Shown here piece after piece: positions 34,342 through 37,876 of a DNA stretch of 64,000 nucleotides. Both the position numbers and the translations under genes were made by a program. The first letter of the stretch is position 1. Each line of letters begins with the position of its first letter. Below the pieces are notes generated by a model, which was not told the origin of the DNA, ran no database searches, and worked only from the letters and a program-made list of their open reading frames with translations. The DNA comes from Luteirhabdus pelagi (GTDB lineage Bacteria > Bacteroidota > Bacteroidia > Flavobacteriales > Flavobacteriaceae): the NCBI RefSeq assembly GCF_016827595.1, contig NZ_JAECMS010000002.1, positions 620,001-684,000 on the forward strand, written 5' to 3'.

Positions 34342-34746
34342 TTGAAGAAACGTAAAACTATTGAAGTTGTAGCGGCAATAATTGAAAATGGCGATAAAAT
34401 TCTTTGTGTACAACGCGGAGAAAATAAATTGACCTATATCTCTAAAAAGTTCGAATTTCCTGGCGGGAAGGTTGAAAAAGGTGAGACTTTAGAGTCTGCC
34501 TTATCAAGGGAATTGCAAGAAGAGCTTCAAATTGAACCTGATATTCAAAACTTATTTCTAACCGTTAAGCACAGTTATCCAGACTTTGATATTACGATGC
34601 ACAGCTTTATTTGTAAAGCTAAGACAAGAAATATCAACCTAACAGAACACATTAATTCTGTATGGTTGAAAAAGGATGATTTAACAACATTGGACTGGGC
34701 GGCTGCGGATATACCGATAATTAATAAGCTAGCGCGATATGATTGA
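34342..34746 (+). CDS. NUDIX (deoxy)nucleoside triphosphate pyrophosphohydrolase, MutT-like
   Basis: A 134-residue NUDIX hydrolase that splits NTP-like substrates into NMP and pyrophosphate. The NUDIX box lies at residues 41-63: GGKVEKGETLESALSREL then QEEL, with all acidic metal ligands present. Initiation is at TTG 34342, preceded by AATAGAGG, which is one of the few Shine-Dalgarno-like sequences in the window; no suitable ATG exists. It overlaps the helicase gene by 8 bases, so the two are translationally coupled. Base composition is more AT-rich than dnaE. A house-cleaning MutT role is possible, but the tight link with a nuclease-helicase suggests a shared task. Confidence 0.9.
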   Translation: MKKRKTIEVVAAIIENGDKILCVQRGENKLTYISKKFEFPGGKVEKGETLESALSRELQEELQIEPDIQNLFLTVKHSYPDFDITMHSFICKAKTRNINLTEHINSVWLKKDDLTTLDWAAADIPIINKLARYD

Positions 34747-37700
34747 AGGAATATACGAAGAATTGGTTACCGAATTAATAAAATCAAAACTTGAAAGTGT
34801 CGATTCGGAAACATTCCACATAAAGGAAACTAAAGTTGATAAGGAGGAAGCGGCACTACTATTTTCAAAGCATATTGCTAATAGTATCAGATTAGCTTTT
34901 CAATCCATAAAGGGTTCTGATCAAATTGATAGGCAGATTGAAATTTCAAACAAAATTATTCGCTTATTAAGGGATGAACTTGACAATACTTCTTTCGATG
35001 AAGATTTAATAGCTACTGAGGGGAAAATGCTACATGCAGTTTTTTCAAAAATAGACTCACACTTTTCAGATTTAGATTTACATCTCAAAGAAATTACCCC
35101 ATACACTAGATTAACGCACAGCGAACTATTTACGGGAGCTAATGCAGGTGTTTCATTGGGTAGCGAATTACAAAAAGAAATTCTTTCTGCAGATAGAATT
35201 GATTTGCTCGTTTCATTTATAAAATTCAAGGGGATTATAATTCTAGAACCACAATTTAAAGAGTTTATTGACCGTGGTGGTGAGCTAAGAGTAATTACTA
35301 CCACATATATGGGTGCTTCTGATTATAAAGCCATTCAGCTACTTTCTAACCTTCCAAATACCACAGTTAAAATTTCCTATAATACTGGCAATGAAAGGTT
35401 ACATGCTAAGGCATATCTTTTTTACAGAAAAACTGGGTTTCACACTGCTTATATAGGTTCTTCAAATTTTTCTAGATCTGCATTAACAGATGGATTGGAG
35501 TGGAATTTGAAAGTCACAACTAAGGAAGTTGGACATATTATAGATAAGTTTCAAAAAACATTCGAAACCTATTGGCAAAGCAATGATTTTGAAATTTTTA
35601 ATGATGGGATTCACAGAGAACGCTTAATTAAAGAATTAAAAAGTGGAAAATTCAGAAAAGAATCGAATGCGTTTACCACATTTTTTGATTTAAAGCCTTA
35701 CCCATATCAGAATGAAATCTTGGAAAAATTAGAAGTTGAACGAGGTGTTCATAACAGGTATAAAAATCTAATTGTTGCGGCAACTGGTACTGGCAAAACC
35801 GTAATTTCAGCCTTTGACTTTAAAAACTTTAAAAAAGAGAATCCTTCAGCGAAGCTTTTGTTCTTAGCACATAGAAAAGAGATATTAGAGAAATCAATGT
35901 CCACCTTTCAAGGGGTGCTTAAAGATAATAATTTCGGGGAGTTATGGGTTGACGGAATGGTGCCCGATCGTTTCGAAAACGTATTTGCATCTGTTCAAAC
36001 TCTTAATAATAAAGTCGAGAAATTAGACCAATCACCAAGCTATTATGACTTTATAATTATTGATGAATGTCACCATCTGACAGCGAATAGTTACCGTGGC
36101 ATTATAGAGTACTTCAATCCAAAAATATTACTTGGACTTACAGCAACTCCGGAAAGAATGGATGGTGGAGACATTCAGGAAGATTTTCATAATCGAATAG
36201 CAGCTGAAATTAGATTGCCTGAAGCTTTAAATAGGAAATTGTTGTCACCTTTTCAATATTTTGGAATTTCGGACAGTGTAGATCTTTCCAAGGCGAGATG
36301 GGAAAGAGGAAGATATGTGCCTTCTGAGTTAACAAAAATATATACGAAAAGTGATCGTCGGGTGGGTGAAATAATTCAAAGTTTAGAAAAATATACTAAG
36401 GATATAAATGAGGTTAAAACGCTAGGATTTTGTGTTTCTATCGAGCATGCACAATTTATGGCTCACAAGTTTACATTAGCTGGTTTAAAGGCCGACTATT
36501 TAACAAGTTCAAATAGTAAAAATCGAGACACCATTAGAAAATCATTAATGGATGGAACTATTAATTATCTATTTGTCGTTGATATTTTTAATGAAGGAGT
36601 CGATATTCCAGAAATAGATACCGTCCTTTTTCTTCGCCCAACAGAAAGCCTTACTATATTTCTGCAACAGTTGGGTAGGGGGCTAAGACTAGCAGATAAC
36701 AAAGAATGTCTTACTGTTTTAGATTTCGTGGGTAATGTACGTCCAGAATATAATTTTGAAAATAAATTTAGGGCCTTAATTGGGAAAACCAATACCCCCA
36801 TTAAGAAAGAAGTCGAAGACAGTTTTCCGCATTTGCCTTTAGGCTGTTCTATAGTTCTTGAGAAGAAAGCTAAGGAGTCTATTTTGAAAAATATCAGAAA
36901 TGCAACTTCACTTTCAAGTAGTCAGCTGATTAATAAAATAAAAACGTTTAAACATCAAACTTCGTTGCCGCTAACATTGAGTAATTTCTTATCAATATAT
37001 TCAATTAAGTTGCAAAATATCTATAAGCGTAATAGCTGGAATAGACTCTGTCAGTTAGCTGGTGAGGAAGTTGATTATTCATCTGAGGGCGAAAAGGCAA
37101 TGGTTTCAATGATACTCAGAAAGTGGTTGGCATCTAACTCATTAAGTTATTTCAAATTTATTTTGAATCTCGCTAGAAATAACTTCCAAGTAAAAACTAG
37201 AACCTTTTCTGAGGAAGAAAGGTTGATGCTTCTAATGTTGCATTACGATTACTACGGTGAAGCTGGAGGTTCGGAAAATTTAGAAACCAGCATAACGTCA
37301 ATTGGTAGGAATAGAACGGTGGTTCAAGAAATAGTTGAGGTATTGGAGATTCTTATAGATAGAATAGACTTTAAGGAATTAGAAGTTGACTTGCCATTTA
37401 AGCAACCATTGAAAGTTCATGCACGATATACTCGTGATCAGATTCTCGTTGCATTTCGAAAAAGTTCTTTTTCGAAAAAGTCTTCAAATAGGGAGGGAAG
37501 TGCGGTGAACAAAGACTTGAATACAGAACTATTGTTTATCAATTTAATTAAATCTGAAGAGAACTTTTCACCAACGACCATGTACGATGACTACGCCGTT
37601 ACAAAAAATCTTTTTCATTGGCAAAGTCAGAACTCAGCTAGCCCAGAAACGGCCAAAGGTTTATCCTATATCAACCAAGACAAAAATGATAAAATTGTAC

Positions 37701-37876
37701 TTTTATTTGTACGCGAAAAAGCGAAAGATGAATTCGGCAATACAATGGGCTATGTTTTTATAGGTAAAGCATTTATCCAGGATTATTCAGGAGCAAAACC
37801 GATGAATATTAATTGGAAACTTGAAGAACCAATGCCAAATTATCTTTGGAAAGAATCTGCAAAATTGGCGATCTAA
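34739..37876 (+). CDS. PLD-nuclease / SF2 helicase / DUF3427 fusion protein
   Basis: The 1045-residue protein has a helical N-terminus (1-130), a phospholipase-D-type nuclease domain (about 140-265) with the HKD motif LHAKAYLF (His222, Lys224) and GSSNFS (240-245), and an SF2 helicase core (about 315-690). The helicase shows Walker A AATGTGKT (347-354), DECH (442-445), TATPER (468-473) and motif VI QQLGRGLR. The C-terminal ~330 residues correspond to what is usually labelled DUF3427. One HKD motif per chain implies a dimeric nuclease. The gene is visibly richer in AT than its neighbours and sits with a NUDIX gene between dnaE and a bestrophin gene. A DNA repair or anti-phage role is inferred, not shown. 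Confidence 0.88.
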   Translation: MIEGIYEELVTELIKSKLESVDSETFHIKETKVDKEEAALLFSKHIANSIRLAFQSIKGSDQIDRQIEISNKIIRLLRDELDNTSFDEDLIATEGKMLHAVFSKIDSHFSDLDLHLKEITPYTRLTHSELFTGANAGVSLGSELQKEILSADRIDLLVSFIKFKGIIILEPQFKEFIDRGGELRVITTTYMGASDYKAIQLLSNLPNTTVKISYNTGNERLHAKAYLFYRKTGFHTAYIGSSNFSRSALTDGLEWNLKVTTKEVGHIIDKFQKTFETYWQSNDFEIFNDGIHRERLIKELKSGKFRKESNAFTTFFDLKPYPYQNEILEKLEVERGVHNRYKNLIVAATGTGKTVISAFDFKNFKKENPSAKLLFLAHRKEILEKSMSTFQGVLKDNNFGELWVDGMVPDRFENVFASVQTLNNKVEKLDQSPSYYDFIIIDECHHLTANSYRGIIEYFNPKILLGLTATPERMDGGDIQEDFHNRIAAEIRLPEALNRKLLSPFQYFGISDSVDLSKARWERGRYVPSELTKIYTKSDRRVGEIIQSLEKYTKDINEVKTLGFCVSIEHAQFMAHKFTLAGLKADYLTSSNSKNRDTIRKSLMDGTINYLFVVDIFNEGVDIPEIDTVLFLRPTESLTIFLQQLGRGLRLADNKECLTVLDFVGNVRPEYNFENKFRALIGKTNTPIKKEVEDSFPHLPLGCSIVLEKKAKESILKNIRNATSLSSSQLINKIKTFKHQTSLPLTLSNFLSIYSIKLQNIYKRNSWNRLCQLAGEEVDYSSEGEKAMVSMILRKWLASNSLSYFKFILNLARNNFQVKTRTFSEEERLMLLMLHYDYYGEAGGSENLETSITSIGRNRTVVQEIVEVLEILIDRIDFKELEVDLPFKQPLKVHARYTRDQILVAFRKSSFSKKSSNREGSAVNKDLNTELLFINLIKSEENFSPTTMYDDYAVTKNLFHWQSQNSASPETAKGLSYINQDKNDKIVLLFVREKAKDEFGNTMGYVFIGKAFIQDYSGAKPMNINWKLEEPMPNYLWKESAKLAI

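Follow-up and report, generated by a model that had tools for sequence, protein, structure and literature searches.

A SauUSI-like type IV restriction gene and an adjoining NUDIX hydrolase gene in Luteirhabdus pelagi form a candidate two-component restriction module

Gene layout and composition of the pair

The genome of the flavobacterium Luteirhabdus pelagi carries, in a stretch of 64,000 nucleotides that was analyzed as a whole (hereafter the window), two overlapping genes between dnaE and a bestrophin gene. The first encodes a NUDIX hydrolase of 134 amino acids (34342..34746, + strand, TTG start), and the second a protein of 1045 amino acids (34739..37876, + strand) that we identify as a SauUSI-like type IV restriction enzyme. 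We propose that the pair is probably a two-component type IV (modification-dependent) restriction module, wherein the NUDIX protein would keep 5-methyl-deoxycytidine triphosphate (5-methyl-dCTP or 5-Me-dCTP) out of host DNA and thereby spare the cell from cleavage by its own nuclease.

As a first-pass annotation of the window had recognized, the two open reading frames (ORFs) overlap by 8 bases (ATGATTGA; 34739..34746, + strand). The NUDIX ORF starts 18 bases past the dnaE stop, and the bestrophin gene, which is convergent, comes after the large nuclease ORF. The interval between dnaE and bestrophin contains no mobility gene, as had been observed at that stage, and no cognate methyltransferase accompanies the nuclease. 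Compared with the other ORFs of the window, the pair is indeed rich in AT, with GC fractions of 0.356 (NUDIX) and 0.342 (nuclease) against 0.434 +/- 0.023, and z-scores for GC at third codon positions of -2.0 and -2.7. The codon usage of the bestrophin gene is just as atypical, and thus codon bias by itself offers no evidence for transfer. The TTG start assigned to the NUDIX gene stands, but the Shine-Dalgarno-like sequence claimed for it does not: the AGAGG directly abuts the TTG with zero spacer, which makes it a poor ribosome binding site.

The large protein is a SauUSI-like nuclease

The large protein exhibits PLDc_2, ResIII/DEAD with Helicase_C, and DUF3427 matches in that order, all above the Pfam cut-offs, and this agrees with its initial description as a phospholipase D (PLD) nuclease with a single HKD motif joined to a superfamily 2 (SF2) helicase and a DUF3427 region. 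It begins with an N-terminal helical extension (residues 1-142; 34739..35164, + strand) that is about 100 residues longer than that of SauUSI and is modeled as helices with low to moderate predicted local distance difference test (pLDDT) values. The PLD nuclease domain follows (PLDc_2; 35165..35578, + strand) and carries a single HxK motif (H222/K224) together with N243 and E254. These four residues are invariant among 46 homologs and align with H119/K121/N139/E150 of SauUSI. The SF2 ATPase/translocase (ResIII/Helicase_C; 35690..36748, + strand) contains the Walker A sequence ATGTGKT (348-354), DECH (442-445), TATPER and QQLGRGLR; these motifs, and with them the catalytic residues of the ATPase including the arginine finger, vary little or not at all among the same homologs. 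The DUF3427 C-terminal region (PF11907, 98.6 bits; 37109..37855, + strand) comprises a coupler and a predicted target-recognition domain.

PADLOC places the nuclease in its mREase_IV subfamily PDLC03659 (750 bits over residues 119-1042), and the score to the other subfamily, PDLC03658, is 272 bits. SauUSI (PDB 7clg) is the top PDB sequence match (259 bits over residues 143-1000, with residue 143 pairing with SauUSI residue 43) and the only solved structure with full-length homology. An AlphaFold2 model (pLDDT 81.7) likewise finds 7clg as its top fold match (E 7e-44, ~930 columns), although the template modeling scores of 0.37-0.46 and root-mean-square deviation of 13 indicate that the relative domain placement of 7clg is not reproduced in the model. 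As a result, we concluded that the protein is a member of the SauUSI-like type IV restriction family. SauUSI cleaves DNA containing 5-methylcytosine (5mC or m5C) and 5-hydroxymethylcytosine (5hmC or hm5C) in an ATP-dependent manner and spares N4-methylcytosine (m4C) DNA (PMC3874153), and by family membership the window nuclease is expected to cut 5mC/5hmC DNA.

Two other identities were considered and rejected. The RadD repair helicase model (NF053632) yields 118 bits against a curated 720 and matches only the helicase core, and type I restriction R subunits likewise match only the SF2 core, far under cut-offs. We also observed that some Bacteroidota proteins of the SauUSI subfamily (L026, L027, L028, L029, L030, L232, L233, L235) carry an additional C-terminal Peptidase_S24 (LexA/UmuD-like) domain after DUF3427, with Pfam scores that range from weak to clear (23-33 bits). 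Such a tail suggests possible damage-linked self-cleavage of the restriction enzyme.

NUDIX genes recur beside SauUSI-like genes

SauUSI-like genes are present in 28 of 400 genomes of the family Flavobacteriaceae, representing 26 of 237 genera, and 21 of these 28 carriers have a NUDIX gene immediately before the nuclease gene. Across the family, this NUDIX subfamily is found together with the nuclease far more often than chance would predict (22 genomes with both, 19 with NUDIX only, 6 with nuclease only and 353 with neither; odds ratio 68, p=8e-20). A wider survey, in which 98 loci of Bacteroidota, Firmicutes, Proteobacteria and other groups could be scored, revealed a linked NUDIX at 45, either upstream (37 loci, mostly with 4-8 base overlaps) or directly downstream (8 loci), leaving 53 unlinked. 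The linked gene is immediately upstream in Bacteroidota and immediately downstream in Firmicutes. On the tree, linkage must have changed at least 15 times, meaning that the association has been gained or lost many times and in two gene orders. Furthermore, all 13 other NUDIX proteins examined that are at least 48% identical to that of the window, drawn from seven families, are encoded immediately upstream of a SauUSI-like gene. The partnership proposed at first pass is therefore a recurrent one.

The two partners have not always traveled together. Whereas the window nuclease falls firmly in PDLC03659, its NUDIX nests with the NUDIX proteins of the SauUSI subfamily PDLC03658 (support 97/81), and a grouping with the NUDIX proteins of the nuclease's own relatives is rejected (approximately unbiased test, p=0.0017). 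The 8-base overlap also occurs at SauUSI-subfamily loci (L026, L027, L233, L234). Partners have thus been swapped between nuclease subfamilies at this locus, and L044 is a second swap of this sort.

The same arrangement exists for SauUSI itself. In a Staphylococcus aureus record, a 133-residue NUDIX ORF ends one base ahead of the SauUSI ORF, which scores 1442 bits to 7clg over 656 residues in an assembly deposited with a frameshift and an inverted duplication. Over 130 residues, this NUDIX matches PDB 5x1x, filed as 'mutT', without a single difference. We had also considered that carriers lacking a linked NUDIX might lean on a chromosomal NudG, but the idea found no support: each gammaproteobacterial carrier has a single match of 31-43%, which is probably MutT, and a search at E<=1e-6 yields none in the NUDIX-less Flavobacteriaceae.

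The NUDIX protein is a predicted 5-methyl-dCTP pyrophosphatase

The NUDIX assignment was corroborated by Pfam (PF00293, 62 bits), by the PADLOC defense candidate family PDC-S07 (PDLC04899, 158.7 bits, qualifying as a member) and by NCBIfam models. The NUDIX box noted at first pass (residues 42-64, GKVEKGETLESALSRELQEELQI; 34465..34533, + strand) retains its catalytic Glu residues, and the columns G42, E48, R56, E57, E60 and E61 are invariant across 24 homologs. The nearest sequence and fold neighbors are deoxynucleoside triphosphate (dNTP) pyrophosphatases. Foremost among them is the Bacteroides fragilis protein Q5LBB1 (PDB 3gwy), which is 51% identical to the window NUDIX. It tops the PDB matches both in sequence and in fold (AlphaFold2 model, pLDDT 94.8) and falls within the clade formed by the window NUDIX and its SauUSI-linked relatives (support 100/94).

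Q5LBB1 was screened previously against 74 compounds and is near-diffusion-limited on 5-Me-dCTP and 5-hydroxymethyl-dCTP (4.8e6 and 4.4e6 M-1 s-1, respectively), with 8.5e4 M-1 s-1 for 5-OH-dCTP and much lower activity on canonical nucleoside triphosphates (NTPs) (PMC5158307). From this assayed relative, we infer that the window NUDIX is a pyrophosphatase for 5-methyl-dCTP and 5-hydroxymethyl-dCTP. The nucleotides removed by Q5LBB1 and the bases attacked by SauUSI coincide, both being 5-methyl and 5-hydroxymethyl cytosine species. 5-Me-dCTP is efficiently polymerized, and degraded methylated DNA is thought to be its main intracellular source (PMC10742078). A type IV enzyme yields just such debris.

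Other genomic contexts of the NUDIX family

Most of the partners listed below for NUDIX family members recognize or repair modified-cytosine sites. Members adjoin genes for McrBC (L155), an AAA protein with DUF2357/PDDEXK_7 (L150), MrcB_N-HNH (L158), DUF3427-HNH (L159), an HNH_2 protein with an unassigned N-terminus (L156) and an SRA-like HNH protein (L162). A plasmid record from Collinsella aerofaciens (L201:4998-5984) contains one ORF that fuses a PDC-S07 NUDIX to the Vsr mismatch endonuclease, and this fusion links the NUDIX to the repair of m5C deamination. Elsewhere, a Vsr gene lies beside a SauUSI-like gene (L103). A different fusion, L145:3128-5497, joins PDC-S07 to PDC-S41, a Schlafen group 3 (SLFN-g3) helicase, in one 790-residue protein, and several unfused neighbors of that kind also occur (L146, L149, L152, L155, L157).

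Some family members sit by polA. On the 3' flank of polA in Flavobacteriaceae (L008, L011-L015, L035, L038, L146-L149, L151, L152), this NUDIX repeatedly occurs with alternative defense genes, and the 3' side of polA is a second defense hotspot.

Horizontal gain at a dnaE-bestrophin insertion site

The first-pass annotation had also held that the pair was gained horizontally and called for a comparison of the dnaE-bestrophin interval among relatives. The pair is absent from the only other genome of the genus examined, in which the same interval contains a C5-cytosine methyltransferase (PF00145), a MutH-domain restriction enzyme and a small ORF. In a related genus (L170), dnaE, bestrophin and trxA are uninterrupted, and in further relatives dnaE is directly beside trxA. 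The alternative cassette in the congener and the empty site in relatives mark this interval as a place where different restriction cassettes insert. Together with the patchy distribution of SauUSI-like genes in the family and the AT-richness of the pair, these observations support horizontal gain. Thus, the pair is neither universal at this locus with normal composition, nor do its homologs lack NUDIX linkage and island context. The congener's cassette makes m5C, and the window's cassette is expected to attack it.

In another genus (G017:C77:5132-9289), C5-methyltransferases lie directly 3' of dnaE, and so the hotspot reaches beyond this genus. Separately, a small protein of ~105 residues with no Pfam match is encoded beside two different C5-methyltransferase restriction cassettes (L032:9843-10163 and L151:4720-5028).

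Carriers tend to lack C5-methyltransferases

C5-methyltransferase genes are present in 6 of 28 carriers versus 199 of 372 non-carriers (p=0.0013), and in 4 of 20 carriers versus 106 of 217 others when one genome per genus is counted (p=0.018), comparisons that correct for phylogeny only in part. A profile search confined to PF00145 found no C5-methyltransferase in the window's own genome. This depletion is consistent with m5C being both the target of the nuclease and harmful to carriers. Among the six carriers that do encode C5-methyltransferases, one (G349) has a disruption in the 5' end of its nuclease gene.

We also noted that at two loci (L019 and L021) a NUDIX-less SauUSI-like gene has a 20-base convergent overlap with the gene for an Eco47II-type restriction enzyme (PF09553, confirmed in L021). 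The genome containing L021 (G101) has no C5-methyltransferase, which leaves its protection from its own Eco47II-type enzyme unexplained.

Proposed function and alternatives

Building on the observed architecture, family membership, recurrent linkage, partner swap and patchy insertion at a hotspot, we favor the following function for the pair. The DUF3427 region of the nuclease would find cytosine-modified (5mC/5hmC) foreign DNA, the SF2 ATPase would translocate, and a dimeric PLD active site would cut. Because the nuclease would treat 5mC as foreign, the host's own DNA would have to stay free of it. The NUDIX protein would destroy 5-methyl-dCTP, such that modified cytosines freed from degraded invader DNA, or made by phage, could not be polymerized into host DNA as a new target. 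Self-protection as the purpose of the NUDIX protein is our inference. A defense role had been predicted at first pass, and membership in the SauUSI family upholds it; of the two substrates then named, damaged DNA is less likely than cytosine-modified foreign DNA.

Several observations weigh against this hypothesis. First, the 53 SauUSI-like loci without a linked NUDIX include all 18 gammaproteobacterial ones as well as the closest relative of the window nuclease (L005, 74%). In the Flavobacteriaceae carriers without the NUDIX, a search at E<=1e-6 finds no NudG-like gene elsewhere in the genome, and the NUDIX is thus not strictly required. Second, the linkage evidence comes from relatives of Q5LBB1 rather than from Q5LBB1 itself. 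Third, the window NUDIX shows the same 34% identity to Escherichia coli MutT as to E. coli NudG, and hence general sequence similarity cannot decide the substrate. Fourth, some family members reside beside genes that do not concern m5C (SLFN-g3 helicase, AIPR), and some distant members occur in ordinary contexts. Finally, the six carriers with C5-methyltransferases, and the partial correction for phylogeny, temper the depletion described above.

The leading alternative, which we consider unlikely, is that the NUDIX protein is itself antiviral: it would destroy the hydroxymethyl- or methyl-dCTP of cytosine-replacing phages and so starve their replication, and the nuclease would cut DNA already modified. 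Q5LBB1 is equally active on 5-hydroxymethyl-dCTP, a precursor of the T-even type, and the two proteins of the window share a predicted chemistry and an operon. Yet the NUDIX-Vsr fusion points to m5C repair rather than phage killing, the C5-methyltransferase depletion indicates that self-avoidance is a real constraint, and m5C/hmC phages of Bacteroidota are undocumented in the literature consulted.

It is less probable still that the NUDIX protein is a generic MutT-like antimutator acting on 8-oxo-dGTP and similar nucleotides, brought along as a gene for repair with no specific tie to the nuclease. The MutT (TIGR00586, 87.5 bits) and NudG (PRK10546; NF007834, 84.8 bits) equivalog scores are close, and genes of this kind have been called 'DNA repair' (Bell et al., 2020; PMC7641849). 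However, both scores fall under their curated cut-offs (97.9 and 156, respectively), and Q5LBB1, the closest relative with assay data, favors 5-substituted dCTP over canonical NTPs. The partner NUDIX of S. aureus scores 76 bits to MutT2 and 75 bits to NudG versus 39 bits to E. coli MutT, and repeated adjacency in two gene orders, together with the partner swap, speaks against hitchhiking. The initial suggestion that the NUDIX protein makes or clears a nucleotide signal that switches the nuclease on or off is very improbable: in other conflict systems, NUDIX enzymes do remove signals such as ADP-ribose (PMC7159879), but the pair has no cyclase, TIR or SIR2 partner, SauUSI requires only ATP and modified DNA (PMC3874153), and the protein groups with 5-substituted-dCTP pyrophosphatases and not with ADP-ribose or dinucleotide hydrolases, which better fits removal of modified dNTPs.

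If the self-protective module is correct, a dedicated 5-methyl-dCTPase partner would explain how type IV restriction avoids self-attack via the nucleotide pool. Descriptions of SauUSI present it as an enzyme that acts alone and as a major obstacle to gene transfer into staphylococci. The puzzling 'MutT' defense candidates of PDC-S07 would gain a substrate, and the orphan activity of Q5LBB1 would gain a physiological role. One such partner, that of S. aureus, already has a solved structure (5x1x). More tentatively, and with the odds somewhat against it, nucleotide-pool sanitation may be a general second arm of m5C-dependent restriction, for which SauUSI, McrBC, MrcB_N-HNH, DUF3427-HNH and SRA-like HNH enzymes would repeatedly have recruited one 5-methyl-dCTPase family. 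Cells that treat 5mC as foreign would then avoid writing it into their own genomes, even from the debris of destroyed DNA.

Comparison with known systems

The window nuclease shares with S. aureus SauUSI the PLD-SF2-DUF3427 order, the conserved nuclease and helicase residues and, as found here, an adjoining PDC-S07 NUDIX gene on the same strand. The identity is remote (24% in the fold alignment), and the window protein differs in having ~100 additional N-terminal residues, in belonging to PDLC03659 whereas SauUSI belongs to PDLC03658, and in carrying Tyr229 in place of the Glu (E126 in SauUSI) of the H(X)K(X)4E motif.

The window NUDIX resembles the B. fragilis 5-substituted (d)CTP pyrophosphatase Q5LBB1 in its intact NUDIX box and its clade. 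Q5LBB1 is an assayed enzyme whose publication draws no link to restriction; for the window protein, the activity is a prediction. E. coli NudG/Orf135 (5-methyl-dCTP) and mycobacterial MutT2 (5mdCTP complex, 5zro) have a similar fold and are expected to share a specificity for cytidine triphosphates, and NudG also shares with it the Asp of the C-terminal ADxP motif. NudG is only ~34% identical, under the NCBIfam cut-off, and unlike the window NUDIX gene, the NudG and MutT2 genes are not known as restriction partners.

The gene pairing itself has precedents. MutT homologs lie beside SauUSI homologs in Streptococcus (Bell et al., 2020, Fig. 9 legend; PMC7641849), and PDC-S07 was co-localized with type IV restriction-modification (RM) systems in 23 of 23 Streptococcus suis cases (PMC12813430). 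A literature search on Nudix proteins with type IV restriction, in which most subscription papers were out of reach, returned no paper linking them functionally or to 5-Me-dCTPase. Unlike the present reading, those earlier notes on Streptococcus and S. suis give neither substrate nor mechanism; the nuclease belongs to an established family, and its interpretation as half of a two-part module with a modified-nucleotide sanitizer is new.

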